A stretch of 64,000 nucleotides of DNA, from NCBI RefSeq assembly GCF_000021745.1, contig NC_011666.1:2118501-2182500 (forward strand), written 5' to 3'. The notes beneath the pieces were generated by a model. The model saw only the letters and a program-made list of their open reading frames with translations, was not told the origin of the DNA and made no database searches. The translations under genes were made by a program, and so were the position numbers. This document shows positions 3 through 25,645 of this stretch, one piece after another. How positions within the stretch are numbered: the stretch's first letter is position 1; every line of letters starts with the position of its first letter. The stretch is from Methylocella silvestris BL2. GTDB taxonomy: Bacteria; Pseudomonadota; Alphaproteobacteria; Rhizobiales; Beijerinckiaceae.

Positions 3-1304
3 TTCTGCTCCATGGTCGTCAATTTCGACCTACCCTGGAACCCGCAGCGCATCGAACAGCGAATCGGTCGCTGCCATCGCTATGGCCAGCGTTACGATGT
101 CGTCGTCGTAAACTTCCTGAATAAGAACAATGCCGCTGACCAGCGGGTGTATGAGCTGCTCGCCGAAAAATTCAAGCTCTTCTCCGGCGTGTTTGGCGCT
201 AGCGACGAGGTGCTCGGTGCAATTGAGTCTGGCGTGGAATTCGAAAAGCGTATCGTATCGATCTACCAGAATTGCCGCTCGACAGGAGAAATCGAAACTG
301 AATTCGAGCGGCTTCGCGCCGAGATGGACACCAACATCACCGCGACGATGGAAGATACGCGCCGCAAGCTGCTGGAGCACTTCGACGCTGAGGTTCACGA
401 CCGCCTGAAAATCAATATGACGCAGAGCAAGGAGTATCTGGATCGGTACGCCCGCATGCTCTGGGCTCTGACGAAACACGAACTTGGCAAGCAGGCCAAG
501 TTCGATGACGACTATCTCACATTCATTCTGTCCGCCTGTCCGGCTGGCATCGACGTTCCGGTTGGAAGCTACTTCCTGTCTAAGCTCGGCATCGATGGGC
601 ATCGCTACCGGCTTGGTCATCCGCTGGCACAGCACCTCATTGGGGTGGCTGGCGCACGCAAGCTGAATGGAGCAGCGCTCGTCTTCGACTACACCGCGTG
701 GCCGCAGACCACTGTCGCAATCGCGCCCCTCGTCGGCAAAGGGGGAACGCTCGTCGTGCACAAGCTTTCGATCCGCGGCGCGGACGATCAGGATCACATC
801 ATCATCGCCGCCATGACAGATGATGGAACGGCCATAGATCCCGCAGCTGCGAAGCGTCTCTTCGAGTTGCCGGTACGCAAGAGCGCCGCCAATGACCTGC
901 AGATGCCGAACGCGGTGAAGGCCACGGTAAACAGCCAGCGCCAGTCGATCCTGGACGACATGGCCGCACGCCAGTCCAAATGGTTCGACGATGAAATCGA
1001 TAAGCTCGACAATTGGGCAGAGGACAAACGTGCCGGGCTGAAGGCCGACCTCAAGGACATCGACGAAGAGATCAAAGCGCTTAAGAAAGAGGTTCGCCAG
1101 ACCGGCAATCTCCCCGACAAGCTCGCCTTGCAGCGCAAGGCGCGCACGCTCGAAGCCAAGCGGGATGAAGCGTGGCGCGCATATGATGCGGCGGCAAAGG
1201 ACATAGAGGTTCAGAAAGACGGTCTTTTGGATCAGGTGGAAGAGCGGCTTGGGCAGGCAGTGTCTGATGAAGAGCTTTTCGCCATCAAGTTTCAAGTTCA
1301 GTGA
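3..1304 (+). CDS. SNF2-type helicase, C-terminal part (gene enters from left edge)
   Basis: The gene is cut by the window edge; the reading frame is open to position 3, so the visible ATG at 12 is internal. The first 30 residues are helicase motif VI of SNF2/RapA-like ATPases (RIEQRIGRCHRYGQ), followed by a long C-terminal domain and a strongly charged coiled coil at about residues 325-420. Such helicases often sit beside type III or DISARM-like restriction genes. The methylase starts 12 bases after the stop, so the two are probably co-transcribed. Its likely role is ATP-driven translocation on DNA in a defence system. The helicase class is clear; the exact family cannot be fixed without the N-terminus. 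Confidence 0.85.
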   Translation, partial: FCSMVVNFDLPWNPQRIEQRIGRCHRYGQRYDVVVVNFLNKNNAADQRVYELLAEKFKLFSGVFGASDEVLGAIESGVEFEKRIVSIYQNCRSTGEIETEFERLRAEMDTNITATMEDTRRKLLEHFDAEVHDRLKINMTQSKEYLDRYARMLWALTKHELGKQAKFDDDYLTFILSACPAGIDVPVGSYFLSKLGIDGHRYRLGHPLAQHLIGVAGARKLNGAALVFDYTAWPQTTVAIAPLVGKGGTLVVHKLSIRGADDQDHIIIAAMTDDGTAIDPAAAKRLFELPVRKSAANDLQMPNAVKATVNSQRQSILDDMAARQSKWFDDEIDKLDNWAEDKRAGLKADLKDIDEEIKALKKEVRQTGNLPDKLALQRKARTLEAKRDEAWRAYDAAAKDIEVQKDGLLDQVEERLGQAVSDEELFAIKFQVQ

Positions 1305-1315
1305 AGGGGCTAAAA

Positions 1316-3211
1316 ATGAACAAGCCGGAACATACTCAACCGGAGAAGATCGATTTGCGATCTATGGATGTTGCGGAGGAGAAGCGGGGCGAGTTGAAGC
1401 GTAGCTTGGGACAGGCGTTTCCGGACATCTTCGCCGAAGGTTCGATAGATTTTGATCAGCTCAAACGGGCTCTTGGCGAGTGGGTGGACCCCGGCAAGGA
1501 ACGGTTCGGTCTCAACTGGCCGGGTAAGGCCGAATGCATGAAGATTATTCAACAGCCAAGCCCCGCAACATTAAGGCCAGAGCGCGAAAAGTCAGCAAAC
1601 TTCGACGAGGCAGAGAACGTCTTCGTAGAGGGGGACAATCTTGAGGTCTTGAAACTGCTTCAGAAAGCTTATTTCGGTAAAGTAAAACTCATATATATCG
1701 ACCCGCCGTACAACACGGGTAATGAGTTTATCTATCCTGATAATTTTACCGAAACGCTGGAAACGTACCTGGCCTATACAGGACAAGTTGACGACGAAAG
1801 AAAGCGCTTTTCAACAAACACAGATCAGTCTGGCCGGTACCATTCTCGCTGGATGAATATGATGTTTCCGCGGCTTTATCTTGCCCGCAACTTGCTAAGA
1901 GATGATGGCGCCATATTCATTTCGATAGATGACAATGAAGTTCATAATCTCCGTGCCTTAATGGATCAAATCTTTGGCGAAGAGAATTTCGTGGCTACGA
2001 TCATTTGGCAGAAGGTTTACGCTCCAAAAAATAGCGCGAAATTCTTCTCCGATGATCACGACTATATCCTCGTTTACGCACGCAACTCGGATCAGTGGAA
2101 ACCCGAGCTGCTTGAAAGGACACCCGAGCAAGATGCTTTATACAAAAATCCGGATAAGGATCAACGCGGCCCTTGGATGTCCGACAACCTTACTGCGCGC
2201 AATTTTTATGGAGAGGGCTCTTACGAAGTCACTGGACCTTCCGGTAAGAAATTTACTCCAGGAAAAGGGCGATACTGGCCCGTTTCTCAATCAAAGTTCA
2301 ATGATTTGAACGCAGACGGGAGAATATGGTGGGGCGTTTCTGGAGACAGCATGCCGCGTTACAAACGGTATTTGTCCGAAGTGTCTGCTGGACGCGTTCC
2401 TCAAACGCTCTGGAAGTATGAAGAGGTTGGTCATACGCAAGACGCAAAGCGAGAGTTGAACAAATATGTGCCTTACGAGGAAACCGAGAATACGTTGAAC
2501 TCTGTAAAGCCGGTTAACCTCATCAGGCGCATGATCAAAATAGCCACGAAGAGCGACGGCGACATTGTGCTGGATTTTTTTGCTGGCAGCGGCACCACAG
2601 GACAGGCGGTTATAGAGCAGTCTTTGGACGACGGCATCAGACGACGGTTCATCATGGTGCAGCTACCGGAGGAACTGCCGAAGCCAGAAGCGAATTTTAA
2701 GACGATCTCCGATTTTGCCCGTGCGAGGGTAAAAAATGTAATTGCAGCGAGTCAGTCCGATTTATTGAAAAAGGACAGTCATGGTCGCGGATTTCGATCT
2801 TTTGCGCTTGATAGTTCCAATTTCAGGTCGTGGGATGGAGGCGTGTCGACTTCAAGCGATTTAGAATCGCAGCTGCAGCTGCATGTCGACCATCTTCGCG
2901 ATGCAGGAGAACCGGAGGATGTACTTTACGAATTGCTTCTGAAATCGGGCTTCCCGCTGGCGACCAAGGTTGTAAAGATCGACCTAAATGGTGCTGAGGT
3001 ATTTTCGATTGAAGAGGGAGCGCTGCTCATTTGCCTCTCTAAGGAGATTACGCCGGAGCTGATCGACGCGCTCGCTGAAGCGAACCCGCTTCAGGTTATA
3101 TGTTTAGACGAGGGCTTCAAGGGCAATGACCAACTGAAAACGAACGCGGTACAGACCTTCAAGGCCCGCGCTCAGGCCGAGGAATCCGAAATCGTCTTTA
3201 AGACGGTTTGA
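1316..3211 (+). CDS. mod: Type III restriction-modification methylase (Mod)
   Basis: A 631-residue DNA N6-adenine methyltransferase. Catalytic motif IV, DPPYNTG, is at residues 129-135 and the SAM-binding motif FFAGSGTTG lies downstream, which is the beta-class order of type III Mod subunits. The ATG at 1316 is preferred over the upstream GTG at 1301 because AAGGGG lies about six bases before it. By family, Mod recognises the site, methylates one strand and partners with Res. The coding sequence is visibly more AT-rich than its neighbours in the centre (about 1650-2800), the variable target-recognition part, which suggests exchange of that segment. Confidence 0.93.
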   Translation: MNKPEHTQPEKIDLRSMDVAEEKRGELKRSLGQAFPDIFAEGSIDFDQLKRALGEWVDPGKERFGLNWPGKAECMKIIQQPSPATLRPEREKSANFDEAENVFVEGDNLEVLKLLQKAYFGKVKLIYIDPPYNTGNEFIYPDNFTETLETYLAYTGQVDDERKRFSTNTDQSGRYHSRWMNMMFPRLYLARNLLRDDGAIFISIDDNEVHNLRALMDQIFGEENFVATIIWQKVYAPKNSAKFFSDDHDYILVYARNSDQWKPELLERTPEQDALYKNPDKDQRGPWMSDNLTARNFYGEGSYEVTGPSGKKFTPGKGRYWPVSQSKFNDLNADGRIWWGVSGDSMPRYKRYLSEVSAGRVPQTLWKYEEVGHTQDAKRELNKYVPYEETENTLNSVKPVNLIRRMIKIATKSDGDIVLDFFAGSGTTGQAVIEQSLDDGIRRRFIMVQLPEELPKPEANFKTISDFARARVKNVIAASQSDLLKKDSHGRGFRSFALDSSNFRSWDGGVSTSSDLESQLQLHVDHLRDAGEPEDVLYELLLKSGFPLATKVVKIDLNGAEVFSIEEGALLICLSKEITPELIDALAEANPLQVICLDEGFKGNDQLKTNAVQTFKARAQAEESEIVFKTV

Positions 3212-3224
3212 GGGGGACACGGTC

Positions 3225-3842
3225 ATGATCCCCGAACGTTTCGTCACTGAATATCCCGCAAGATGCGGCCAGCTGCTCGACATGCTGGAGCGTCCGGCGC
3301 GACATGCCGACCTGCTTGGGTCGTTTGCGCTTCTTGTCGCGTCTGCCGCATTCACGATTCCCTTTGGCCGCATGGTTGAAAAGGCACATCCTCTAGGACC
3401 GCCCGAGGACGCGCTCTACAAGGCCGTCGAAGGCCTGAAGAAACTGCCGTTCGCCGATAGTCCCTTCTGGGCCGGAGGAAAGCCAGGCTTCTTCCGTTAC
3501 GCCAAAATCGTAACAGACCCGGAAGACACAGTTGGTTGGTTGAACGAGAAGGGCGAGCATCCTCTGAAATCGACCGAGGCCAAGGACGCAAACATAGTGT
3601 TGCGAACCATTCGAAATGGGCTCGCACACGGTAATGTCGTTTATCTCGACAAGGACGGGTATGAGACGGCGGGAAAGCGCGTGGTCTATCTCGCGTTTCT
3701 CAGCAAGCACGAGAGCGGCGACGGGTTCCGCGTCGCGATCTTCGATGAGGAGTCTTTCCTCGCATTCCTGAAGGGATGGATCGGGAGGCTGCAAGGCTTC
3801 CCGCTGGAGCGCAAACTTGCGTTCGCGGAGGCAGCAGAATGA
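3225..3842 (+). CDS. HEPN-domain protein (pEK499_p136-like) inside the type III RM operon
   Basis: A 205-residue protein lying between mod and res and overlapping res by the ATGA at 3839-3842. Near the middle it has RNGLAH (R130 to H135), matching the R-x4-6-H catalytic motif of HEPN ribonucleases, followed by a beta-strand-rich tail. It resembles the HEPN pEK499_p136 family, recognised from memory and pattern rather than a search. HEPN proteins commonly act as RNases in toxin and abortive-infection systems. Position inside the operon suggests an accessory effector or a backup if restriction fails; that is inference. It could also be a non-catalytic helper. Confidence 0.65.
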   Translation: MIPERFVTEYPARCGQLLDMLERPARHADLLGSFALLVASAAFTIPFGRMVEKAHPLGPPEDALYKAVEGLKKLPFADSPFWAGGKPGFFRYAKIVTDPEDTVGWLNEKGEHPLKSTEAKDANIVLRTIRNGLAHGNVVYLDKDGYETAGKRVVYLAFLSKHESGDGFRVAIFDEESFLAFLKGWIGRLQGFPLERKLAFAEAAE

Positions 3843-6787
3843 AACTTAAATTCGATCCCTCACTTCAGTACCAGCAGGATGCCGTCAGCGCCGTCGTTGG
3901 GGCGTTCGAGGGGCAGCCCTTCGTGCAGACCGGGGCAATGGCGTTTCAGTCGCTTCAGATCGGCGGTCTGTTTCAGACGGAGCTGGGGCTGGGCAATCTC
4001 CTCAACATTGGCGATGAGCAAATTCTCGCAAACGTCCGGGCCGTTCAGGAAGCTAATGAGATCGAGAAGGTAATTGCCCTCAACGGGCGTGAGTTCTCAG
4101 TCGAGATGGAGACCGGCACCGGCAAGACCTACGTCTATCTTCGGACGATTTTTGAGCTGAACAAGACCTACGGCTTCAAGAAGTTTATCATCGTGGTTCC
4201 GAGTGTCGCCATTCGTGAGGGCGTGCTTAAGAGCATCGAGGTAACGAAGGAGCACTTCCACACGCTCTACGACAACGCGCCCTTCGATCACTTTGTCTAT
4301 GACTCAAAGCGTCTAGGCAAAGTGCGCCAGTTCGCGACCAGCAATCAGATTCAGATCATGGTCATCAACATCCAGTCCTTCCAGAAGGATGTTGCCGACA
4401 AGGACCTCTCGGAGATGACCGAGGATGAGCTGAAGAAGCTCAATGTCATCAACCGTGAGAATGATCGCATGTCGGGCCGCAGGCCTATCGAGTTCATTCA
4501 GGCGGCCAGCCCCGTTGTCATCATCGACGAACCCCAGAGCGTCGATACGACCGAGAAATCACGGCGGGCGATTGGCAACCTCAATCCAATGGCGACGCTG
4601 CGTTACAGCGCGACGCATCGCAATCCCTATAACCTCCTCTACAAGCTCGACCCGATCAAGGCTTACGACCTACGGCTCGTGAAGAGGATCGAAGTCGCAT
4701 CCGTCCGGTCGGATGACAATTTCAATGATGCATACGTGAAGCTGCTCAAGACAGACAACAAGACCGGCATCAAAGCGCAAATCGAGATTCACAGGGAAGG
4801 TGCCACTGGCCCCAAAGCGGCGAAGCTTTGGGTCAAGCAGGGCGATGACTTGTACGTGAAGTCGGACGAGCGCGACGCTTATCGCGACGGCTACATCGTG
4901 CAGAACATCGATTGCACTCCGGGCTCCGAATATATCGAGTTCAATCAAGGCCGCTTCCTTGAGCTGGGTCAGGAAGTCGGCGGGCTTGGCGAAGACATTA
5001 TGAAGGCTCAGGTCTATGAGACCGTCGAGCAGCATCTAAAGAAGGAGCGCGCCCTGAAGGGCAAGGGCATCAAGGTGCTCTCGCTGTTCTTCATCGACCG
5101 CGTCGCCAACTACCGCATCTACAATGAGGACGGGACGACCAGCCTTGGCAAGATCGGTCAGTGGTTTGAGGAGGCCTATCAGCAGCTCACGGCCAAGCCC
5201 ATCTACAAGGGCCTTATCCCATTCAGCGTTGCCGATGTTCACAACGGCTACTTCTCGCAGGACAAGCAGGGCCACGCCAAGGACACACGCGGGAACACCG
5301 CCGACGATGATGACACTTACAGCCTCATCATGCGCGACAAGGAGCGGCTTCTCGATCCTAACGTTGCACTGCGCTTCATCTTCTCCCACTCCGCCCTGCG
5401 CGAGGGCTGGGACAATCCAAATGTGTTCCAGATTTGCACCCTGAACGAGACGCAATCAGCCGAGCGCAAGCGGCAGGAAATCGGGCGCGGGTTGCGTCTG
5501 CCTGTCAATGAGACCGGCGAGCGCGTTCATGACGAAACGATCAATCGTCTGACCGTCATCGCCAACGAGTCATATGAGGATTTTGCGCGCACGCTTCAGA
5601 CCGAGTTTGAAGAGGATTTTGGCATCAAGTTCGGAAGGATCGAGAAGATCGCTTTCGCAAAGCTCGTGCGACGGGCTGCGGATGGAACCGATGTCGAACT
5701 CGGGCAGGACGAGTCCGTGAAGATTTGGCACGAGCTCGTTGCGAAGGGCTACCTAAATGGCGCGGGCGATATTCTGGAGAAGTTTGACCCGAAGAACCCC
5801 CATTTCAAACTGGAAATTTCAGACGCGTTCGCTGATCTCCGGGCGGAAATCATCGACGAGGTGAACCGCAAGCTCTTCAAGAACCGTATCGTCAATGTCC
5901 GCGATGAGCGCACCCTGAAATTCCGGAAAGAGGTGCATCTCAGCGCCGACTTCCAGGCTCTCTGGGATAAGATCAAACATCGCACGCGTTACCGCGTGAC
6001 TTTTGAAACCGCTGCACTGATCGACCGGGCGCTCTCGCGCATCAAGCAGATCGAACCGATCAAGGCAGCGCGCATCGAGACCACCGTCGTTGAGGTGGAT
6101 ATTACCGATGCCGGTGTCTCCGCCGACCGACAGATTTCGTCGCGAGTGAGGGACGTGCAGCAGGTAAAGGTCTTGCCGGACATTCTCGCCTTCCTGCAGA
6201 AGGAGACTGAGCTGACCCGCCACACGCTTGCCGAAATCCTCAAGCGCTCGGGGCGGCTCGGCGAGTTCAAGATTAATCCGCAGGCTTTCATGGCAGCCGC
6301 TGCGAAGGAAATATCGCGCGCGCTGCATGACCTGATGCTCGAAGGCATCAAATACGAGAAGGTCGCAGGCCAGCATTGGGAAATGAGCCGGATCGAGCAG
6401 GATGCCGAAGACGGCATCGTCCGGTATCTCGGCAATCTCTATGAGGTTCAAAACCGCGAGAAGTCGCTCTTCGATGCAATTGTTTATGAATCCGAGGTTG
6501 AGAAGCAATTCGCACGCGACCTCGACAGCAATGAGAACGTGAAGCTATTCGTCAAGCTGCCGTCGTGGTTCAAGATCGACACGCCCATCGGCACCTATAA
6601 TCCCGACTGGGCCTTTGTGACCGAGCGCGAGGAGAAGCTTTATTTCGTTCGTGAGACGAAGAGCACGCTCGACAGCGAGGAGCGGCGCACTAAGGAAAAC
6701 CAAAAGATCGCCTGTGGTCGCAAGCATTTCGATTCGCTTGGGGTAGACTATGCCGTGGTCACTTCGCTTGCAGACGTGGCGATGTGA
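3839..6787 (+). CDS. res: Type III restriction enzyme, Res (helicase-nuclease) subunit
   Basis: A 982-residue DEAD/DEAH-type protein. Walker A is METGTGKT at about residues 90-97, the Walker B region reads VVIIDEPQS, and motif VI reads RQEIGRGLRLP. The C-terminus carries a PD-(D/E)xK-type nuclease core, YNPDWAFV followed by FVRETKST. Length and domain order are those of type III Res subunits, which translocate or switch on DNA and cleave when two Mod-bound sites meet. The start is the ATG overlapping the previous stop, with GGAGG-rich sequence upstream; a longer in-frame start at 3776 would overlap the HEPN gene. All key motifs look intact. Confidence 0.93.
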   Translation: MKLKFDPSLQYQQDAVSAVVGAFEGQPFVQTGAMAFQSLQIGGLFQTELGLGNLLNIGDEQILANVRAVQEANEIEKVIALNGREFSVEMETGTGKTYVYLRTIFELNKTYGFKKFIIVVPSVAIREGVLKSIEVTKEHFHTLYDNAPFDHFVYDSKRLGKVRQFATSNQIQIMVINIQSFQKDVADKDLSEMTEDELKKLNVINRENDRMSGRRPIEFIQAASPVVIIDEPQSVDTTEKSRRAIGNLNPMATLRYSATHRNPYNLLYKLDPIKAYDLRLVKRIEVASVRSDDNFNDAYVKLLKTDNKTGIKAQIEIHREGATGPKAAKLWVKQGDDLYVKSDERDAYRDGYIVQNIDCTPGSEYIEFNQGRFLELGQEVGGLGEDIMKAQVYETVEQHLKKERALKGKGIKVLSLFFIDRVANYRIYNEDGTTSLGKIGQWFEEAYQQLTAKPIYKGLIPFSVADVHNGYFSQDKQGHAKDTRGNTADDDDTYSLIMRDKERLLDPNVALRFIFSHSALREGWDNPNVFQICTLNETQSAERKRQEIGRGLRLPVNETGERVHDETINRLTVIANESYEDFARTLQTEFEEDFGIKFGRIEKIAFAKLVRRAADGTDVELGQDESVKIWHELVAKGYLNGAGDILEKFDPKNPHFKLEISDAFADLRAEIIDEVNRKLFKNRIVNVRDERTLKFRKEVHLSADFQALWDKIKHRTRYRVTFETAALIDRALSRIKQIEPIKAARIETTVVEVDITDAGVSADRQISSRVRDVQQVKVLPDILAFLQKETELTRHTLAEILKRSGRLGEFKINPQAFMAAAAKEISRALHDLMLEGIKYEKVAGQHWEMSRIEQDAEDGIVRYLGNLYEVQNREKSLFDAIVYESEVEKQFARDLDSNENVKLFVKLPSWFKIDTPIGTYNPDWAFVTEREEKLYFVRETKSTLDSEERRTKENQKIACGRKHFDSLGVDYAVVTSLADVAM

Positions 6788-6808: not shown

Positions 6809-7165
6809 TCAATCCACCGCTCCACGACACCATTTGACGCGCCCGCGCCGGAACCAGAAGTGCGACCCGCAGTCCTTCTTCCGCCAGACGGAAGGATGAA
6901 GACTAGCTGTGCCATCCTCGTGTTGCGTGAGTTTCCAGCACGGGCGCTCGTCGGGCAGTAAGTTCATTTGCAGCGTTCGGCGGCAGCCGCAGGGACAAAC
7001 CATTGCCGCTTGCTCCTGGAAGCCGTCTTCCTCGACCACATAGATGGTCTTGCGCTTGAGGCTTTTGGGCAGAGATTCCTCGACAATAAGGGTTCGATAG
7101 GGAGGATAGAGCCAGCGATAAACGCGCGCTCGGGTCCGCGATAATAGACCGTGAAACCAGTTCAC
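6809..7165 (-). CDS. DUF6527-like zinc-binding protein of the ubiquitin-like operon
   Basis: A 118-residue last gene of a minus-strand operon; its ATG overlaps the stop of the E1/JAB gene by four bases. The sequence has a cysteine/histidine-rich core (CPCGC near residue 58, then a C...H...C...H array and a C-terminal C), so it probably binds zinc. The pattern fits DUF6527, a family repeatedly found at the end of bacterial ubiquitin-like operons; I recognise it by pattern only. Function is unknown; a role in target choice or in helping E1/E2 is plausible. It converges on res, with only 21 bases between stops. Confidence 0.65.
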   Translation of the reverse strand: MNWFHGLLSRTRARVYRWLYPPYRTLIVEESLPKSLKRKTIYVVEEDGFQEQAAMVCPCGCRRTLQMNLLPDERPCWKLTQHEDGTASLHPSVWRKKDCGSHFWFRRGRVKWCRGAVD

Positions 7166-8577
7166 GACACCCGCCTTTCAGCGAGTTCCATTATCCCTAG
7201 AAGCGGGGATGTGTCGCCGATGCCAACAGCGCCGCCCAGAATTTCGCAGATGCCCTCTTCAGGATCGCAGATCAGCTCCATGCTGGCGAGACTGAACGTT
7301 ACGCTCGCATAGCTTGCGTTCGGCTCTTCGCGGAAGGGATGGAGACGGGCGAGGAACTCATCCACGGCAAGCGCGGATGCAAACATGTTCACGCTGATTA
7401 CCGCAGGGCGATGCGCCGCAACTCCCTTAATGTATCCGTCATCGACCTGGCGCTCATGGGCGCGCGGATCATTACGCCTTAGGCCCGACGCGGCGACCTC
7501 GCCCATCGTGAACAGACCCCGGCTCATAAGACTGGAGCGACCAGGGCGAAGGTAGTTGACGGTGCCGCAGACTTCGCGGATGCGACCTTTCCCAGCGCCG
7601 TCCCGGACCGCATCGAGGCGCACGCCAATATCGAAATATGGGATCGAGTAATATGAGGCGAGCGCGTTGAGGAGGTAGCGACCATCGACCGTGTCCATGC
7701 AGCCGAATATCACGTCGCACTGTGCGACTTCTCGAATGACATCGGGATGCCAGAGATTCTTGCGCACGCGAACGACGCGGGTTCCAAGGCCGATCCGCTC
7801 GGCAGCATCCGCGAGCACGTCGACTTTCGTCCGACTGTCACTCGCATCTTGCATTGTGGAGTTCAGGATACGGTTGACGTTGCGATCCTCCATGTAATCA
7901 TCGTCAACAATCACGATTTCAGCAGCGCCCAGCCTGACGAGCTGTTCAACAGTCGGGCTTCCGGTGCCGGAGGCCCCGACCACGGCAAACGAAAGGCGGC
8001 GGAGCCGCTGGATTGTTCCTTCGTCAAAGGCTTGCGCATGAGATGCGACGAAGTTCGGCAAGGCAACGCTTCCCGCGTCCGCATACCAAAAAAGAAGGTC
8101 GTCGCCTGCCACAGAGATACAGTCGATTGGCGCAAAGCTGCCGTCGTCCAACATGACGCGCCCGAACATCTGGCCGTAAGGCAACATGACTGCGCTGCCG
8201 TGAAAGACATTGGCCTCGACCCATCCACGGACCATCGGCAGGAGGCGTGCGTCGCCCGCGTCGTCGGTTGTGGAGAATGCGCCATAGCCGGTCGGATGAC
8301 TGTGAACTTTGACGACCGAAAGACGCTCGGCGGCAGCCCGATCCAGCATCGGCGCGATGTAATCTGGCGGCCATGTGACGCGCGACGGCGTCCGCTCGGA
8401 GCAGTCGTCGTAAGGAATACCGTGTATCTCTCGGACGACAAGGCGATGGCAGCGATCACCATCGCGGCGTCCGCACAGTAGAATGGCAACTGCCTCTTTG
8501 CCATCCCCCGGAAACAGGAAGCTCATCAGGTGCTCGTGCTGATCACCCGAGAGCGCAAGGGTTATGCGAGCGGACAT
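7162..8577 (-). CDS. JAB deubiquitinase-like / ThiF E1-like adenylyltransferase fusion
   Basis: A 471-residue two-domain protein. Residues 1-150 are a JAB/MPN peptidase with a complete JAMM zinc site: E28, then HSHP (H92, H94), S102 and D105. Residues 185-471 are a ThiF/E1 adenylation domain, with the glycine loop VGASGTGS at 200-207, the VDDD strand end near 225 and the N-R pair at 235-236. By family, the JAB part trims or removes ubiquitin-like proteins and the E1 part adenylates their C-terminal glycine. It overlaps the E2 gene by 16 bases and the DUF6527 gene by four, so expression is tightly coupled. I see no obvious canonical E1 catalytic cysteine; C337 or a serine near 348 are candidates. 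Confidence 0.9.
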   Translation of the reverse strand: MSARITLALSGDQHEHLMSFLFPGDGKEAVAILLCGRRDGDRCHRLVVREIHGIPYDDCSERTPSRVTWPPDYIAPMLDRAAAERLSVVKVHSHPTGYGAFSTTDDAGDARLLPMVRGWVEANVFHGSAVMLPYGQMFGRVMLDDGSFAPIDCISVAGDDLLFWYADAGSVALPNFVASHAQAFDEGTIQRLRRLSFAVVGASGTGSPTVEQLVRLGAAEIVIVDDDYMEDRNVNRILNSTMQDASDSRTKVDVLADAAERIGLGTRVVRVRKNLWHPDVIREVAQCDVIFGCMDTVDGRYLLNALASYYSIPYFDIGVRLDAVRDGAGKGRIREVCGTVNYLRPGRSSLMSRGLFTMGEVAASGLRRNDPRAHERQVDDGYIKGVAAHRPAVISVNMFASALAVDEFLARLHPFREEPNASYASVTFSLASMELICDPEEGICEILGGAVGIGDTSPLLGIMELAERRVS

Positions 8578-8975
8578 TTTTCAAACTCCCGCTCGAGCCA
8601 GTCTTCGATCAAGATGACGTGCGTACCGAGATGGTCGCGCCCGATCTTCCAGGGATTTTCGCCCGTGCGGTGGCGAGACCAGCGCTGGTAGGTCTTGCCG
8701 TCGAGCGCTTGCTGCGCTTCCGTCGCGCCAATCGGTTTGCCGTCGATCCGCGCGAGAGCCGGGAAGAAATACACCATGTTGAGTTCGGTGTTCGGATAGC
8801 CGGTCTCGATCCGGATCGCCGCGGTGACGCGCGTGTGGTTGTAACCGTGCGGCGTCGGAAGATCGTGGATCAGCACCCATTGGGAGCCATCCACGATCGT
8901 TTCCCACGACAGTCCGTACTCGTCCAGGAATTCGTGGTCGACAGGGAGCAAGTCGAACTGGCGACGGAGGGTCAT
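8562..8975 (-). CDS. E2-like (prokaryotic E2 family E) protein
   Basis: A 137-residue protein between the Ubl and E1/JAB genes. The central pattern YFFPALARIDG, WSRHR and a D-x-L-x-TH segment matches the prokaryotic E2 family E fold as I know it. The only cysteine is C134, four residues from the C-terminus, so the protein has no cysteine at the usual E2 catalytic position. Either C134 serves on a flexible tail, or the system uses a non-cysteine carrier or conjugates by another route. It starts three bases after the Ubl stop. The family call is moderately sure; the lack of an internal cysteine is seen directly. Confidence 0.75.
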   Translation of the reverse strand: MTLRRQFDLLPVDHEFLDEYGLSWETIVDGSQWVLIHDLPTPHGYNHTRVTAAIRIETGYPNTELNMVYFFPALARIDGKPIGATEAQQALDGKTYQRWSRHRTGENPWKIGRDHLGTHVILIEDWLEREFEKCPLA

Positions 8976-8978
8976 GAC

Positions 8979-9320
8979 TCAGCCCTCCGTCTGGTCGCGC
9001 GGCAGCGCCTTGAACTTCTCGACGCCCGGGTGACGCAGGTCGACCTTTTCGTCTAGACCGACCTTGCGAGGCTTCCCGCCGGCGAGCTTGACACGCAAGG
9101 TGTACTGCTCGGCAGGGATCAGGCCGGCGAGCGTCAGAATTGCGCGACCGGTGGGCTTGGGATCGTGGACAACGAACGCGTCGCCGTTCACGCGGATGCG
9201 GTAGCCCTTCGCCAAAGGCGGACGCTTTCCGAGCTTCGCGTATTCTTCGAGATCGGCAATTTCGTCGAGAACTTCCTCAACGCCGGAGTCCTCCTCCTTC
9301 ATATCAGTATGATCAGTCAT
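8979..9320 (-). CDS. Ubiquitin-like modifier (multiubiquitin-family, single beta-grasp)
   Basis: A 113-residue first gene of the operon. An acidic N-terminal tail (residues 1-30) is followed by one predicted beta-grasp domain of the multiubiquitin type (YRIRVNGDAFVV, then a YTLRVK strand). The chain ends in a single glycine, as expected for a modifier already in mature form. The ATG at 9320 is preceded by AAGGAGGG seven bases upstream; longer in-frame starts would run through the promoter. It would be the substrate adenylated by the E1 and trimmed or removed by the JAB domain. Only one Ubl unit is present, not a tandem chain. Confidence 0.8.
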   Translation of the reverse strand: MTDHTDMKEEDSGVEEVLDEIADLEEYAKLGKRPPLAKGYRIRVNGDAFVVHDPKPTGRAILTLAGLIPAEQYTLRVKLAGGKPRKVGLDEKVDLRHPGVEKFKALPRDQTEG

Positions 9321-9371
9321 CGATTTTCCCTCCTTGGGAAGCGGGCTGGCCACTGCGGCTGCCTCCACACC

Positions 9372-9446
9372 AATATGGCATAGCATGCTAAGAATATCAA
9401 GCAAGCTCTTTGCAAGCTTGACGCCGTTCGCGCCTCGCGCTAGAAT
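9372..9446. promoter_or_regulatory. Divergent promoters and palindromes between the Ubl operon and xre
   Basis: Rightward promoter: TTGACG (9418-9423), 17-base spacer, TAGAAT (9441-9446), feeding the XRE gene. Leftward promoter read on the minus strand: TTGATA (9400-9395), 17-base spacer, CATATT (9377-9372), feeding the Ubl gene. A perfect palindrome TAGCATGCTA (9381-9390) lies in the leftward spacer. An inverted repeat TCAAGC-N13-GCTTGA (9397-9421) covers both -35 regions. The arrangement suggests the XRE repressor binds here and controls both directions. Confidence 0.65.
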
Positions 9447-9482
9447 CGTAAATGGAACAATGCGTTGCAGGAGGATGCCGCT

Positions 9483-9878
9483 ATGCTCGCCCGCACTGAT
9501 GACAGGAGTACCGTGAAGCCCACCCTTGGACAGTACCTCGCCTCGATTCGCACCGACCGCAAAATGACCTTGCGCGAAGTCGAGGAGGCCACCGGCAAAC
9601 AAGTATCGAATGCGTATTTGAGCCAGATCGAAAATGACAAAATCCAGAAGCCGTCGCCCAACATTTTGCACGCACTGGCTGAGCTCTATGCCATCAACTT
9701 CGAGAAGCTGATGGAAATGGCCGGATACTTAACTTCGCCGACGACGCGCGCCGACACCGAAAGGCACGGGCGAATCGCGACTTTCGCCGAACACAATCTC
9801 ACAGCCGAGGAAGAGGCTGAAATGATGCAGTTCCTTCAATTCATGCGAAGTAGGAAACGACCGGGTGATAAGACCTGA
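9483..9878 (+). CDS. XRE-family transcriptional regulator
   Basis: A 131-residue protein with an N-terminal Cro/C1-type helix-turn-helix (about residues 12-70, including TLREVEEATG and SNAYLSQIEN). The start at 9483 is chosen over the in-frame ATG at 9465 because CAGGAGG sits eight bases upstream. It overlaps the ImmA/IrrE-like peptidase gene by 14 bases. In such pairs the peptidase cleaves the repressor on a stress or phage signal. Placed divergently from the Ubl operon with shared operator-like repeats, it is likely the operon's regulator. Confidence 0.9.
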   Translation: MLARTDDRSTVKPTLGQYLASIRTDRKMTLREVEEATGKQVSNAYLSQIENDKIQKPSPNILHALAELYAINFEKLMEMAGYLTSPTTRADTERHGRIATFAEHNLTAEEEAEMMQFLQFMRSRKRPGDKT

Positions 9879-10806
9879 CGACAGCAGCTTAGACCCGGAA
9901 GATCTTCGGGCGGTCGAGGAGCGCGCACGCAAGCTCCTGGACCGCGCCGACGCGTGGGACCGGTTTCCCGTTCCGCTTGAGGACATTCTGGCCGCTGCCC
10001 AAGTGCGGGTTGCCCCGACGAGTATGTTCGATGCCGCCTCGATCATCGCTTATCTGAAGGGTAAGACTGCTGACGCGGGCGCGCGCATCAAGTCGGCAGT
10101 CGCTAAAGTTTTCGGCCTGTACGATGCCGGAGAAGGCCTCATCCACATCGATGACAAGGTAGTGAAATCGAAGCAGACCTTTCTTACGCTGCACGAGACC
10201 GCGCACCATGATCTGCCAACCCACCGCAAGCTCTTTCGCTTCTTTCAAGATTGCGAGAAGACCCTGGCTCCCGACATCGCCGACCAATTCGAGCGCGAGG
10301 CAAATAACTTTGCCCGCTTCGCTCTGTTCAAAGGCGACGCCTTTGCGCGACATGCCGCGGACTGCGCATTCGAGATCAAAACGCCAATGACGCTTGCGAA
10401 GAAATTCGGAGCGTCGGTCTACGCCTCGGCACGCGAATTCGCCCGAACCAATCACCGGGCCTGTGTCGTCTATATCTTGGAGCCGATTGAGCTCGTTGCC
10501 GGTCACGGCGCTAGCGCCAAAGTCCGCCGCATCGAACCTTCCCCTTCATACATAGCCCAGTTCGGACGGCCTTCGGATACGGTCGTTACTTTGAATCATA
10601 TCCTTGGCCCGGTCCTGCCAATCGGGCGCAAGATGACGCGCCCGGTCTCAGTGTCGATCAAGGACAAAAATGGGGCGCCGCACGAAAGCGTAGCTGAGCC
10701 CTTCGACACGCAGCACAACGTGCTGATCCTCCTCTATCCAGTGAAGGCGCTGAGTGGTTCGACCATCATCTTGCCGCCGGGCTTCAAAAAGGTGGCCGCT
10801 GTTTGA
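9865..10806 (+). CDS. ImmA/IrrE-family metallopeptidase
   Basis: A 313-residue protein starting at a GTG inside the end of the XRE gene. The zinc motif HETAHH is at residues 110-115 (HExxH), with a second conserved acidic/helical segment (FEREANNFARFALF) following, as in ImmA and IrrE peptidases. Family members cleave a partner XRE repressor, so this probably senses a signal and releases the Ubl operon from repression. The C-terminal ~150 residues form an extra domain that I do not recognise and that could be the sensor. Confidence 0.85.
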   Translation: MIRPDDSSLDPEDLRAVEERARKLLDRADAWDRFPVPLEDILAAAQVRVAPTSMFDAASIIAYLKGKTADAGARIKSAVAKVFGLYDAGEGLIHIDDKVVKSKQTFLTLHETAHHDLPTHRKLFRFFQDCEKTLAPDIADQFEREANNFARFALFKGDAFARHAADCAFEIKTPMTLAKKFGASVYASAREFARTNHRACVVYILEPIELVAGHGASAKVRRIEPSPSYIAQFGRPSDTVVTLNHILGPVLPIGRKMTRPVSVSIKDKNGAPHESVAEPFDTQHNVLILLYPVKALSGSTIILPPGFKKVAAV

Positions 10807-10815
10807 CCGGCACCG

Positions 10816-10998
10816 TCAGCGCGGCCTGAACTCAGGCCGCGCGAGAGCGATACGAATATTCTGCAGATTGTAATGAGCGGTGCGAAGCTCCGGCGAATTT
10901 TCCCTGAGGCGCGGCAGTTCGGCTGCGATCACTTGCAGCAGGATTTGCAGCTCGCTTCTCGTGCATCGCGCCAGTTCGGTTTGGGACATCACTCTCAT
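10816..10998 (-). CDS. Small hypothetical protein
   Basis: A 60-residue, mostly helical basic protein. The ATG at 10998 has GGAGG six bases upstream and is preferred over the in-frame ATG at 11010. It lies in converging orientation after the ImmA/IrrE-like gene. No domain recognised; similar short proteins occur in alphaproteobacterial mobile elements. No gene is seen between 10999 and 11304. Confidence 0.45.
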   Translation of the reverse strand: MRVMSQTELARCTRSELQILLQVIAAELPRLRENSPELRTAHYNLQNIRIALARPEFRPR

Positions 10999-11304
10999 CT
11001 TTTCCTCCATCGGTTCCGGCTGCGGACATCGCGGCCTTGTGCGGAGGGCAGGAGCGCTTCGGCGGGCTATGCACCGGGACGGCTGAAACGTGAGAGGAGG
11101 AGTGCTGCTTGCAGCACTTGCATTGACTTGAGGCGAAGCAGCTATCGCTTACGTACAGATAAAGGACGGGATGGCTGAAAGACGGACCGAGGAGGAAACA
11201 AAGTGTCACAACCGGATTGGGAAGAGGCGCGAAGCGAGGCAATGAATGAAGTATCTTCGCGAATGAACATGGATCGGACTGCGCGCGTCAGGTTATGATT
11301 GCGA

Positions 11305-12012
11305 ATGGAATCGCAACGCTTGAGTGATTTGCAGAAGTTTTATTCGATCATCGCTCGTCTTGAGAAAGGTCTCGGAGGAGCGCGAACGCTTGGAAGCGCT
11401 TCGGGCAGGCTCACCTGGCCAAAGCGAGGCGTTTATTTTTTCATGGAGGATGGCGAGGTTCGTTCCGAGTCAGGAAGCGGCCCGCGCATCGTGAGGGTCG
11501 GGACGCATGCGCTGAAGACCGCGTCGGGAACAAGACTTTGGACCCGCCTGTCGCAGCATCGCGGACGCCTGGGCAGTGGCGGCGGCAATCATCGCGGTTC
11601 GATATTCCGACTCATAGTGGGGACGGCACTCATGGCGCGGCACGGCCATGAGTATCCGACGTGGGGCAGCGGACAGTCGGCAAGTGCCGATATACGGGCT
11701 GGCGAGGTGGAGCTGGAGCGCGAAGTAACGCGCTTCATCGGCGCGATGCCGTTTGTCTGGATCGAGGTCGACGACGAGCCCGGTGCAGACAGCATGCGCG
11801 GCTACATCGAGCGCAATGCAATTGCGCTTCTCAGCAACTTCGGCAGGACGCCGGTTGATGCGCCATCCGAGGGATGGCTTGGCCATGACTGCAACAGGGA
11901 GAGGATCAGGAAGTCAGGTCTGTGGAATTCCAATCACGTCGATGAGGTCTACGACCCGGCGTTTCTCGAATGCCTTGAGCGGCATGTGCTGGCGATGGAG
12001 GCGGTCGCTTGA
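11305..12012 (+). CDS. GIY-YIG-like protein, first gene of a three-gene operon
   Basis: A 235-residue protein. Residues 35-60 read RGVYFFMEDGEVRS and then RIVRVGTH, resembling the two strands (GIY and YIG) of GIY-YIG nucleases, followed by a helix containing RLSQHRG. This would make it a DNA-cutting or DNA-repair type enzyme, but the match is by eye and the second motif is VGT rather than YIG. The ATG at 11305 is used; the upstream in-frame codon at 11299 is TTG. The stop overlaps the start of the next gene by four bases, so all three genes are probably one functional unit. Confidence 0.55.
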   Translation: MESQRLSDLQKFYSIIARLEKGLGGARTLGSASGRLTWPKRGVYFFMEDGEVRSESGSGPRIVRVGTHALKTASGTRLWTRLSQHRGRLGSGGGNHRGSIFRLIVGTALMARHGHEYPTWGSGQSASADIRAGEVELEREVTRFIGAMPFVWIEVDDEPGADSMRGYIERNAIALLSNFGRTPVDAPSEGWLGHDCNRERIRKSGLWNSNHVDEVYDPAFLECLERHVLAMEAVA

Positions 12013-12671
12013 TTGTCGTCATTCAGTGCGCTGCAAAAAAGCGTGACGACGCGGGTCATCTCAGGACGAAGGATGGAAGGCGGGTTCTGTTTGTCGCCGA
12101 TCCTGATAGAGCTCCGCCCAAGGCGGGCTACGTCTACGCACGGCCCGACGACATCGCCGATGACGGCAAGGCGTGGCGTGATATTTTGCAAGGCTACAAC
12201 AGCCAACCCGGAAACAATCCGCTCGGGCTTCTTCGCGCGTTCGAATTATATGCGAACGATGCTTATCGCCATCTCGCGGACCGGGTCGGCTTGGACAAGA
12301 TGTTCATTCTCTCGGCTGGCTGGGGACTGATCAACGCGGCCTTTCTCACCCCCTGTTACGACATCACGTTCAGCGCTCAGGCCGAGCCGTACAAGCGCAG
12401 GCGAAAGACCGATCACTACCGTGATCTGCGCATGTTGCCGAGGGAGACAAACGAGCCAATCGTGTTCTTCGGCGGCAAGGATTATCTGCCGCTCTTTCGC
12501 GAACTGACCGACGGCGCCTGGTCGCCGCGAACCGTGTTCTTCAATTCCGCGACCGTGCCGCAGATACAAGGAGGCTCCGCCGTCCGGTTTCAAACCACGA
12601 CCCGCACGAACTGGCACTATGAATGTGTGAATGCGTTCTTACGCGGCGAAATCGGAAGCGAGCTATCGTGA
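12009..12671 (+). CDS. DUF6884 / YaaA-like protein
   Basis: A 220-residue protein beginning at a TTG that overlaps the upstream stop (TTGA). The N-terminal strand VVIQCAAKK, the central motif LSAGWGLI and a Tyr-rich core fit the DUF6884 family, distantly like the peroxide-stress protein YaaA. Biochemical role is not established for this family. It sits between a GIY-YIG-like protein and a GNAT-like protein with four- and one-base overlaps, so a DNA-related or base-modification role in a shared pathway is possible but unproven. Confidence 0.55.
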   Translation: MIVVIQCAAKKRDDAGHLRTKDGRRVLFVADPDRAPPKAGYVYARPDDIADDGKAWRDILQGYNSQPGNNPLGLLRAFELYANDAYRHLADRVGLDKMFILSAGWGLINAAFLTPCYDITFSAQAEPYKRRRKTDHYRDLRMLPRETNEPIVFFGGKDYLPLFRELTDGAWSPRTVFFNSATVPQIQGGSAVRFQTTTRTNWHYECVNAFLRGEIGSELS

Positions 12672-14099: not shown

Positions 14100-14999
14100 A
14101 TGAGAAGCGACGTTTATCAGCGTGTCACGGATCAGATTATTGCAGAGCTTGAGAAGGGCGTGAGGCCTTGGCTGAAGCCTTGGAATGCGGAGCAAGCGGC
14201 AGGAAGGATCACCCGTCCGCTGCGCGGTAATCTCATTCCCTATCAGGGCATAAACGTCATCATGCTCTGGGCGGAAGCGATGGAAAAGGGCTTTGCGGCA
14301 CCGATCTGGATGACCTTCAAGCAGGCTCTGGAACTGGACGCTCATGTCCGCAAGGGCGAAAAGGGAAGCCTTGTCGTGTTTGCTTCAAGCATGACGCGCA
14401 CCGAGACCGTCGAAGCGACCGGCGAAGAGGAGGAGCGCAACATTCCCTTCATGAAGGGCTACACCGTGTTCAACGTCGAGCAGGTGGACGGACTTCCTGC
14501 GCACTACTACGCGACAGCGGAGGCGCGCCTTGATCCAGTGAAGTGCAATGCGGCAGCGGAAACGTTCTTCGCAAACACCGCCGCCCAAATCCGGCATGGC
14601 GGCAACATGGCCTATTACAGCACGGGACCCGATCACGTGCAGATGCCGCCTTTTGAAACCTTCCGCGATGCAGAGAGCTATTACGCGACGCTCGCACACG
14701 AGGTGACGCACTGGACGAAGCATCCGAAGCGGCTCGACCGTGACTTCGGGCGCAAGCGGTTCGGCGATGAAGGCTATGCGATGGAGGAGCTGGTCGCGGA
14801 GCTTGGCGCGGCTTTCCTGTCTGCCGATCTCGATCTCACCCCGGAGGTTCGCCCCGATCATGCTTCCTATATCGAGAATTGGCTGAAGGTGCTGAAGGAG
14901 GACCGGCGCGCCATCTTTGCGGCAGCTTCGCACGCACAGCGCGCGGCGGACTTTCTGAACGGGTTTCAGAAGTCAGACATACAGGCGCATGCCGCCTGA
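14100..14999 (+). CDS. ardC: ArdC-family antirestriction protein
   Basis: A 299-residue protein. The N-terminal half (about 1-130) matches the ArdC ssDNA-binding domain (DVYQRVTDQIIAELEKGV, GYTVFNVEQVDGL). The C-terminal half is a zincin peptidase with HEVTH at 200-204 and a downstream EELVAELGAAF acting as the third ligand region. ArdC-type proteins protect incoming ssDNA against host restriction during conjugation. This gene is a typical leading-region gene of conjugative or mobilisable elements and supports calling the block mobile. Confidence 0.93.
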   Translation: MRSDVYQRVTDQIIAELEKGVRPWLKPWNAEQAAGRITRPLRGNLIPYQGINVIMLWAEAMEKGFAAPIWMTFKQALELDAHVRKGEKGSLVVFASSMTRTETVEATGEEEERNIPFMKGYTVFNVEQVDGLPAHYYATAEARLDPVKCNAAAETFFANTAAQIRHGGNMAYYSTGPDHVQMPPFETFRDAESYYATLAHEVTHWTKHPKRLDRDFGRKRFGDEGYAMEELVAELGAAFLSADLDLTPEVRPDHASYIENWLKVLKEDRRAIFAAASHAQRAADFLNGFQKSDIQAHAA

Positions 15000-16690: not shown

Positions 16691-19600
16691 ATGTCTGGAA
16701 TTACTTTTATTGTCGAAGGCGCCACTGGATTAGACGAGCAAGACGTAAAGAACTCTTTCGAAAACCTTCGCAACGCCTCTGGTGATTTTGATCAAGATAT
16801 TCTCTACATTGCCTCTAAAACACGCGTTCTCATCATTATCGCGAACGATACCGTTAGCGGAACATCAGCCACGTATCCTGTCACTTCGGGCGACACGGCG
16901 TACTATGGCACCTATGACTACGTGATCCGAATTCCGAAGCAGGGCTTCGATGGCGATACATACAATCACGTTGGAACAGACAAGTGGTCATTGGAACGCT
17001 TATACGCCCATGAAGTAGCGCACGTCATGCAAGCCATAGGTGACAACGCACCATCGACGCAAGCGGAGCGGGAAGAACAAGCGACGAAATATTCAAATCA
17101 TATTATGAGCACAGCTCATCCCGAGGAGAGCCCGCAGACCCATTACTATAATACGGAGGGCGATACCGGCAGCGGCCTCAATCAAAACTCGGGAAGCGGG
17201 GACTCTCCGCACATTCTGGACGACAGCAGCCCACTAAGTGAGAATTTGCCAGGGGCTCCCCTGCCAAGTCAGCTAGCTGCGATTCAACCGGCATTTGGAG
17301 ATGCAATTAACGCCTCCAGTCCCCTTGTAATCGACCTTTCCTCGGGTCACTCCGGCGTGACTCTGACCACGTGGAGCGCTAGTACTACCGAGACGTATTT
17401 TGATCTGGACGACAATGGCTTTGCCGTTCAGACCGCTTGGGTTAGCGGCGATACCGGGCTTCTGGCGCGCGACTTAAACGAAAACGGAATTATTGACTCC
17501 TCGGCAGAACTGTTCGGGTCTCCGACCGTTGATGGCTTCGCGAAATTGGCGATGCTCGATTCAAACCATGACCTCCGCATTGATAGCAATGATGACGCTT
17601 GGGACTCCCTGGTTGTCTGGAATGATGACGGAGACGCGGTCACGCAGAGCGGCGAACTTCATTCGCTCGCATCACTCAACATCGCAAACATCGATCTTGC
17701 CGGAGTCGCTTCCTCAACGAGTACGATCTCCGGAAACTCGATCAGCCACGTTAGTAAGATCACCTTCACGAGCGGTGCAACGGCAGCGATCGACGACGCC
17801 TGGTTCGTACATGACAATACGAACTCCTTCTATACAGGCGAGTACACCCTTGATGTCGACACACTATTTCTTCCGAGAGTGCGCGGTTACGGTACCTTGC
17901 CTGATCTGACTATAGCGATGAGCCTGGATTCCGATCTTAAGGACTTGGTCTTGGGTTTCGCAGGTACCGATCTGTCCGAATTCGCAGATGCCAAAACTGC
18001 AATTACGGACATCCTCTATAAATGGGCTGGCGTGGAAGGCGTCGATCCCGACAGCAGAGGCATTTGGGTTGATGCCCAGCATCTAGCTTTCCTTGAACAG
18101 TTCATCGGAAGTGACTTCCTTCAAATCACAACCCACTCTGCAGACCCGCAGCCATGGGCTGGGGCACTGATCGAGGACGCCTATCAGGCGGCCTTCGCGA
18201 TGTTGTCGGCGGACATATTGGTCCAGACGGGTTTTGGTCAGCTGTTTGACACCGCCATTACGTACAACCCTTCGTCTGGCACTCGTACCGGTGACACTGA
18301 TCTATCTGAGGACGCAATCGATGATCTCGTCAGCATCGCTCCTTCGTCTGGACCTGAGAATGAGGCGTTCTGGGTGTCGGTCGCGTGGGCGCTGGATGTT
18401 ACGAAGGGCATTTCGAATCTGAGTTACGACGAGACGACATGGCTCTCCGACGCAATCACGGCGTCCAATGCATTGTCGGACTGGGCAACGGTCTTACACA
18501 GCTACGACCCGTCCGCCGGCACCGCCTCGCAAAACGGCACAAATGGAGCTGAAACCCTTTATGGAGACGTGACCGCGGATACCATCCATGGCTTCAACGG
18601 CGCTGACACCATCTACGGAGACTACGGCAACGACATCCTCTACGGCGACGACGGCAACGATGTCATCTATGGGGATGAAGGCGCTGATGTGCTTTATGGA
18701 GGAGCCGGTAACGATCATCTTTATGGAGGCGACGGCAACGATACGATCCATGGCGAGTACGGTAACGACACCCTGGACGGCGGAGCTGGCGGGAACTTCC
18801 TGAGCGCTCTAACGGGCGATGACACCTTCGTTTATGGAGGAGGTCACGATGTGATTAGCGATACCGGCGGTTCGGATCAGTTGCTTCTGCCATCAGGGAT
18901 CGTCTTAGGCGACCTGACTTTCCAGAGAGTTTCGACGGAAGGCAGCCTTTCGTATTTCGACGACCTCCTCATCAACATTGATGGTGCCGGTACAATCGAG
19001 ATCAAGGCACATTTCCAAAGTTCCTCGTTCCGTATTGAGACGCTGGTGTTCTCCGACACCAGCACGCTGGATTTAACGACCCTTGCAAATCCAGATGTGT
19101 ACCTAACGGCGGGAAATGACACGTTTACCAGCGGCGCGACTGGCGCCTTCGCTATCTACGGAGGCGATGGTGATGACTATATGTCCGATTATCAAAATGC
19201 TGCTCACACCTTCGACGGTGGCAACGGCAATGATGCGATGTACGGAGGAGCTGGCAACGATACTTACATCGCGAGCACCGGCTTCGATACAATCAGCGAA
19301 AATGCAGGGACAGACACAATCGTCGTCCCAGCCGCATTCACGATTGATGACGTGACCTTCTACCGAATCCTAAATGGAAGCGGCCCAACCGATAACCTTG
19401 GCATCTCGATCAATGGCCTCGGCGAAATCGCCGTGATCGCGCAATTTTCGAGTGCGCTGGTTGAGTACATGCACTTTGACAACGATAACAGCACAATATC
19501 ACTGTCAGGCCTCTCCATCACAACGGTTGGAACGGCAGGGAATGATAACCTGAGTCCTCCTAGCACTCATGCGGGAGCCAACGATATTCTAGACGGGAGA

Positions 19601-25601: not shown

Positions 25602-25645
25602 GACTGCAAGCACCGCGAACGTCTTGGCCAAGGATTGGTCAGATA

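Follow-up and report, generated by a model that had tools for sequence, protein, structure and literature searches.

In a stretch of 64,000 nucleotides from the alphaproteobacterium Methylocella silvestris BL2 (contig NC_011666.1; the whole stretch is called the window here), positions 6809-10806 hold what we read, with a probability of roughly 0.88, as a bacterial ubiquitination-like (Bub) operon under the control of a CapH and CapP switch. The locus consists of four genes on the minus strand and two divergent genes on the plus strand, and all six open reading frames (ORFs) are open at the coordinates given below. Earlier work (Gong 2025, Ye 2026, both as given in PMC13373217, EMBO J 2026) had turned up hundreds of Bub operons, and CapW or CapH with CapP accompanies 219 of 544 Bub operons; the accessible text of that paper does not give the split between the two and describes phage protection by Bub as not demonstrated. 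Because Bub operons with CapH and CapP are thus already in print, the Methylocella locus is a further example of a described system and not a new kind, and the novelty that a sequence-only reading of this DNA had implied for the combination was not borne out. Its identification of a bacterial ubiquitination-like operon with a protease and repressor switch is well supported by Pfam, PADLOC and Protein Data Bank (PDB) matches and by the literature.

A six-gene Bub locus

The operon begins with BubA (8979-9320, minus strand; 113 amino acids), continues with BubB (8562-8975, minus strand; 137 amino acids) and BubCD (7162-8577, minus strand; 471 amino acids), and ends with a DUF6527 protein (6809-7165, minus strand; 118 amino acids). 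These genes had been described beforehand as overlapping, which is correct at two of the three junctions (16 nucleotides between BubB and BubCD, 4 between BubCD and the DUF6527 gene) and wrong at the first, where a 3-nucleotide gap separates BubA from BubB. Facing them on the plus strand are a CapH-like repressor of the XRE/helix-turn-helix (HTH) kind (9483-9878) and a CapP-like ImmA/IrrE peptidase (9865-10806; 313 amino acids), with a 14-nucleotide overlap. The capH frame is open from a TTG at 9465, and the ATG at 9483, which follows AGGAGG, is the more likely start.

All four operon proteins exceed the curated cut-offs of their Pfam families, and the Pfam and PDB matches agree with the earlier assignment of a ubiquitin-like protein (Ubl), an E2-like protein, a JAB-E1 fusion and a DUF6527 protein. 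A hidden Markov model check set beforehand for two of them returned Multi_ubiq for the 113-residue protein and Prok-E2_E for the 137-residue protein, both above the Pfam cut-offs, and by sequence comparison the same two proteins also match solved Bub proteins.

BubA is a single ubiquitin-like domain behind a 39-residue N-terminal extension, and its C-terminus reads ...DQTEG. It matches Multi_ubiq over residues 40-106 at 1.5e-19 (70.3 bits against a cut-off of 24.5). In a PDB sequence search it matches the Citrobacter BubA (9ea8_B) at 1.9e-6; matches to further multi-ubiquitin proteins, including a BilA, range from 6e-9 to 8e-7. Conservation was assessed in a 20-row alignment made up of the window, locus L007 and 18 loci of the genome_contigs collection, in which some rows are near-duplicates (L024/L026, L027/L028), so that conservation counts overstate independence. 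The TEG motif is found in all 20 Ubl rows; the Ubl ends exactly there in 11 and carries two extra residues in 5, and in the remaining 4 (L027, L028, L029 and L033) it forms the N-terminal part of a fusion with the E2, TEG running straight into the E2 part. Since the window BubA already ends in glycine, its sequence places it with the type that has no need of maturation; at the fused loci the Ubl would have to be cut free before it could be conjugated, perhaps by the JAMM domain.

BubB matches Prok-E2_E at 1.1e-45 (154.9 bits) and, in the PDB sequence search, the Citrobacter BubB at 9.1e-30. Its sole cysteine, C134, is common to 5 of the 20 rows, and no conserved cysteine was found among the aligned rows, in which no cysteine column is shared by more than 5. 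BubB residues S100, H102, T104 and T118 are conserved. BubB is not known to need a catalytic cysteine, and Bub chemistry probably proceeds without a cysteine thioester on the E2. BubCD joins a JAB (JAMM) peptidase to an E1/ThiF adenylation domain (Pfam ThiF 1.1e-24, Prok-JAB 1e-6) and matches the Citrobacter BubCD at 1e-94 over residues 7-467 in the PDB sequence search. The JAMM motif is intact (H92-x-H94-x7-S102-x2-D105), its four named residues are kept in at least 95% of the 20 rows, and D105 aligns with the residue altered in a PDB sequence that includes 'BubCD D104A'. Such fusion of E1 and JAB may differ from one Bub operon to another. No relative of BubCD was found in a phage collection at E 1e-10.

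Bil (BilABCD) operons encode the same four functions (Ubl, E1, E2 and JAB), so that the locus might instead encode thioester-based E1/E2 chemistry of the Bil type, and BubA does match a Methylobacterium BilA (8u38_A, 6.6e-9) better than the Citrobacter BubA. Against this, the E1 and JAB parts are fused, and the E2 has no conserved cysteine, unlike BilB, whose catalytic cysteine lies in a CEHH motif according to the accessible text of PMC11354881. Moreover, the PDB match lists of BubCD (at E of 0.01 or below) and BubB (at E of 1 or below) contain Bub entries and none named Bil. We therefore rejected a Bil operon, which we consider very improbable.

Type II cyclic-oligonucleotide-based antiphage signaling systems (CBASS) are built from an E1-E2 fusion (Cap2) beside a cGAS/DncV-like nucleotidyltransferase (CD-NTase). 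A module of this kind, or a 6A-MBL-like one, in which an E1-E2 fusion and a JAB protein tag a partner enzyme, is suggested by weak matches of BubCD to PADLOC E1-E2 models (best 3.6e-9) and to the NCBIfam 6A-MBL model cap2_3 (1.2e-5). These matches are limited to the ThiF part, however, and the operon supplies a Ubl of its own and encodes its E2 separately, in a gene of a different family (Prok-E2_E); this candidate was likewise rejected, as the least probable of those considered. No CD-NTase cyclase model is among the families found for the ten ORFs scanned.

The last protein of the Bub operon matches Pfam DUF6527 at 1.4e-23 (82.9 bits against a cut-off of 23.6). Residues C57, C59, C61, C99 and H102 are invariant in 19 of 19 aligned rows and likely form a metal site. 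An AlphaFold 2 model of the protein reaches a mean predicted local distance difference test (pLDDT) score of 85.8 and has no match in the PDB at E of 0.001 or below (best 0.43), the best hit of a sequence search stood at E 0.45, and a literature search for the family name found no paper. The model is possibly that of an undescribed small metal-binding fold.

The CapH-like and CapP-like regulators

The HTH protein matches Pfam HTH_3 at 1.3e-9 and PADLOC capH at 3.7e-7; the capH model has no stated cut-off, and HTH_VI scores higher (5.2e-9). Its neighbor matches PADLOC capP at 1.2e-12 over positions 6-162 of the 242-position model, and its HETAH motif and an EREANNFA stretch are invariant in five full-length aligned rows. 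The capH and capP matches and the HETAH motif are in line with the divergent XRE and ImmA/IrrE pair proposed earlier. Single-stranded DNA activates CapP, which cleaves CapH (accessible text of PMC13373217 and of PMC10904395). The latter describes CapP as structurally like PprI, which forms with DdrO a related pair wherein an HExxH peptidase activated by single-stranded DNA cleaves a transcriptional repressor. By homology to CapH and CapP pairs, the Bub operon of Methylocella is likely induced by DNA damage.

Two promoters and a predicted operator

A consensus scan of the gap between capH and bubA predicts two sigma-70-like promoters, one per direction, against a mean of 0.1 in shuffled sequences. 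The predicted Bub promoter (9372-9400, minus strand) reads TTGATA-17-CATATT and the predicted capH-capP promoter (9418-9446, plus strand) TTGACG-17-TAGAAT; the -10 region of the latter is conserved in an alignment of the capH-bubA gap of six loci (the window, L018-L021 and L007). From this alignment we derived a two-part element at 9382-9421, the predicted CapH operator. Among the four most different loci (the window, L020, L021 and L007) its invariant letters, written on the Bub strand, are TCAAGCnnGC, a spacer of 8 or 9 bases and GCTTGAnAnnCTTAGCnnGCT. The element overlaps the -35 hexamers of both promoters as well as the spacer of the Bub promoter. As far as a consensus scan can show, the earlier statement that inverted repeats overlap the promoters is correct, the repeat elements being conserved in relatives. 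Mean majority identity is 0.844 over 9377-9424, compared with 0.619 and 0.753 in the intergenic sequence to its two sides, and no block as conserved as the best 48-column one arose in 10,000 shuffles of the columns.

The 21-base core of the element was then sought in all collected loci, with four plasmid loci that have a divergent HTH and peptidase pair, and that were unused in deriving the operator, serving as a held-out set. The capH and capP models were run on two of these (L064 and L066); for L067 and L070 the CapH-like assignment comes from annotation only. The core lies in the capH-bubA gap of L064 and L067 with 0 mismatches and of L066 with 1. Where a locus lacks a CapH homologue, the core matches with 3 mismatches or more, if fragments that the pattern itself retrieved are not counted, and the best chance matches in such loci have 3 to 5. 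Within the Methylocella genome there is one exact match, the next best having 2 mismatches, and at up to 3 mismatches the core yields 38 matches as compared with 91 for a reversed control pattern. Four exact cores occur in 397 genomes of the order, three of them at the Bub cassettes of G000, G158 and G311. We regard the operator as well predicted by these comparisons.

Several observations weigh against a CapH and CapP switch acting through this element. The conserved block also contains promoter elements, so that part of its conservation may reflect the promoters and not an operator. The match in held-out locus L070 lies in the gap with 4 mismatches and scores no better than background; as 3 to 5 mismatches is the level of chance, this locus counts by the position of its match only. 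The fourth exact core among the genomes of the order lies inside an ORF of G329, where the outer half is missing and no capH homologue was found in the 7.9 kb readable there. When 1 mismatch is allowed, core matches appear in 22 of the 397 genomes and the reversed control yields more, and for this reason only exact matches are informative; no capH homologue was found near the 1-mismatch core of G353, the one other match inspected. On the protein side, the peptidase reaches 0.0098 and 16.1 bits against Pfam Peptidase_M78, under the cut-off of 22, as a distant member of that family would. Its AlphaFold 2 model, built from a 5-row alignment, is unusable (pLDDT 40), and CapP is consequently placed by profile and motif only. 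No cleavage site was identified in CapH, and that CapH binds the predicted operator is something we infer from co-occurrence only.

Relatives, cassette ends and genomic surroundings

A scan of genome_contigs with BubCD gave the 18 loci mentioned above, with best-segment identities from 90% to 42%, in Alphaproteobacteria, other Proteobacteria, Firmicutes, Bacteroidota and one metagenome-assembled Chloroflexi genome. BubB, BubCD and DUF6527 are present in the same order in all 18; in 14 of them BubA is a separate gene ahead of BubB, and the other 4 have it fused to the E2. Within the order, Prok-E2_E occurs in 16 of 397 genomes, that of Methylocella included, and in none of the 19 other genomes of the same family in the sample. 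DUF6527 has a match in 19 of 398 genomes sampled in the phylum and is not confined to Bub, since three genomes of the order (G147, G171 and G281) have it without a Prok-E2_E match.

The first 25 kb of the window were compared by blastn with five loci that have the full gene set (L018, L019, L020, L021 and L064). Each gave a single block of nucleotide homology, starting at 6820-6828 and ending at 10751-10898, which covers only the six-gene cassette; this block is also all that L018 and L019 have in common with each other. Blocks are shorter for L007, where the end of the locus cuts the homology short, and for L022, which has no CapH/CapP pair. Because homology ends sharply at the two outer genes, the six genes appear to travel as one block among unrelated neighbors, and the description of the locus as self-contained, made from the sequence beforehand, finds support in the same sharp ends. 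The cassette of L064, on a Methylocystis rosea plasmid, lies among genes annotated as AbiV, AbiJ-NTD4 and AbiE (3410-3976 and 9409-12032 of that locus).

A type III restriction-modification pair, methylase (PADLOC 1.2e-187) and restriction enzyme (1.5e-298), occupies 1301-6787 and is convergent with the DUF6527 gene. Before it an ORF at 12-1304, which matches models of DrmD and of other helicases, is probably truncated by the window edge. Beyond the cassette lie an ArdC-like protein (14100-14999), a type IV secretion system coupling protein (23847-25682), a relaxase (27484-28926) and an AbiE toxin-antitoxin pair (29053-30814). With these genes nearby, the cassette is possibly part of an integrated conjugative element.

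The Ubl, E2 and E1-JAB set could, under the same switch, serve a host response to DNA damage or a housekeeping stress response, in repair or proteostasis, and not phage defense. The patchy occurrence of Prok-E2_E in the order and its absence from the other sampled genomes of the family speak against this, as do the sharp ends of the cassette, the adjoining type III restriction-modification genes and the nearby conjugation genes, all of which are usual for defense cargo; we consider a host stress role possible but rather unlikely.

Elsewhere in the window, positions 16691-20611 encode a protein of 1306 amino acids with RTX-type calcium-binding nonapeptide repeats (PF00353, 9 stretches).

A divergent peptidase with differing partners

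A script searched 29 loci, namely all 18 genome_contigs loci and 11 plasmid loci out of 94 matched plasmid records, for a divergent ORF with an HExxH motif within 1.9 kb of bubA. Such an ORF faces the Bub operon in 22 of the 29 (16 of 18 genome_contigs loci and 7 of 11 plasmid loci, from which L072, a 1140-residue helicase, is discounted), as compared with 2 of 29 that have an HExxH ORF within 1.9 kb downstream. Besides L072, the loci with none counted are L029, L030, L068, L071, L073 and L074, of which L030 has a peptidase-like ORF without HExxH. When plasmid loci are ordered by BubCD identity, the ORF is present in 6 of 7 at 44% or above (L064-L070) and in 0 of 4 at 39% or below (L071-L074). 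Models or annotation make the peptidase one of the ImmA/IrrE or capP kind in L020, L022, L023, L025, L027, L031, L035, L064, L066, L067, L069 and L070, and phmmer matches it to the window CapP in L018, L019, L021, L032 and L034, weakly in the last two; the remaining divergent HExxH ORFs were classed by motif alone.

The gene accompanying the peptidase differs among loci. It is CapH-like in the window, L007, L018-L021, L064 and L066, and by annotation in L067 and L070. An HTH-peptidase fusion is found in L025 and L026, in L024 by likeness, and in L065, where the protein is annotated XRE and has HELGH. A small HTH protein stands with a short peptidase in L027, L028 and L033, a small ORF with an HTH-peptidase in L023, and two hypothetical proteins with a peptidase in L069. 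Five loci combine what we read as a sigma-70-like protein with a small ORF and a peptidase: L022 (4222-6044), L031 (4215-6189), L032 (4355-6206), L034 (3455-5301) and L035 (4268-5974).

The sigma-70-like reading of these five loci is weak. For the L031 protein, the matches to Sigma70_r2 (4.6e-4) and r4 (0.013) both stay under the cut-off. The L035 protein matches r3 alone among the sigma models, at 0.041, and other HTH models do as well or better; the L022 protein has no sigma model match, and L032 and L034 were read by eye. Aligned to L031, the L022 protein is 12% and the L035 protein 18% identical. The window CapP is a poorer match to the capP model than the peptidases of L031 (3.1e-40) and L035 (3.1e-60).

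We tentatively suggest that the peptidase is the constant regulator and its partner the part that is swapped, and that the sigma-linked loci might represent an activator-type switch in which a CapP-like peptidase destroys, in place of a repressor, the inhibitor of a dedicated sigma factor, a proposal that we hold to be doubtful. Since the loci were chosen by likeness to the window BubCD, the pattern describes one branch of Bub only. If true, the sigma-linked loci would provide a new way for the sensing of single-stranded DNA to switch on protein tagging. No link between ImmA/IrrE and sigma factors is described in the titles or abstract openings of the papers listed by a literature search whose main query used loose terms. 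Neither IrrE nor ImmA occurs in the accessible text of PMC13373217, where the accessible passages on 'sigma factor' concern the anti-sigma likeness of CapK/CapS.

Proposed mechanism and significance

By homology, CapH seated on the two-part operator between the divergent promoters would silence both the Bub operon and its own genes. Damaged or invading DNA would expose single-stranded DNA and so activate CapP, which would cleave CapH and release both promoters. The BubC part would then adenylate the free glycine end of BubA, and BubB would hand BubA on to its targets by a route that does not involve a cysteine thioester on the E2. The JAMM domain in the BubD part may remove BubA from these targets or free stalled conjugates, and has no need to mature a BubA that already ends in glycine; the DUF6527 protein would act as a small, probably metal-binding accessory protein. 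The physiological purpose of such a pathway would be immunity or a general DNA-damage response.

A compact six-gene example with a single Ubl and a BubA that by its sequence needs no maturation is convenient for reconstituting the pathway together with its switch, and the predicted operator makes control by CapH directly testable. The pattern of a peptidase with swapped partners among relatives could teach how bacteria couple DNA damage to protein tagging.

Comparison with known systems

DdrO has many targets. In Deinococcus, where PprI (IrrE) is its peptidase, it acts at the radiation/desiccation response motif (RDRM) sites of the damage response (PMC10904395, accessible text), whereas the Methylocella genome contains one exact operator core. 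CapH and CapP of CBASS and other defense operons (described in the accessible text of PMC13373217 and PMC10904395) resemble the window pair in placing an HTH repressor and an HExxH peptidase beside the operon they control, and in comparison with those systems the window CapP, at 313 amino acids, is a diverged branch. BilABCD likewise offers a complete bacterial set of Ubl, E1, E2 and JAB for conjugation, but with separate E1 (BilD) and JAB (BilC) proteins and a cysteine E2 (PMC11354881, accessible text), where the window has the first two fused and an E2 without a conserved cysteine.

The Citrobacter Bub system (PDB 9ea4, 9ea5, 9ea8, 9eae and 9eav) shares with the window the Ubl, the E2-like protein, the JAB-E1 fusion and DUF6527, and by tblastn the window BubCD is 37.0% identical to the copy on a Citrobacter freundii plasmid. 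That plasmid carries a 362-amino-acid 'multiubiquitin' gene directly before the JAB-E1 gene; as no separate E2 gene is annotated there, its Ubl and E2 parts are probably fused, in contrast to the separate, single-Ubl, glycine-ended BubA of the window. The control genes differ as well: upstream of the plasmid operon, on the same strand, are a hypothetical protein of 368 amino acids and a winged-HTH protein, which are probably CapK and CapS, in place of the divergent CapH and CapP of Methylocella. A DUF6527 gene is annotated on the Citrobacter plasmid too, as at the end of the operon in the window.

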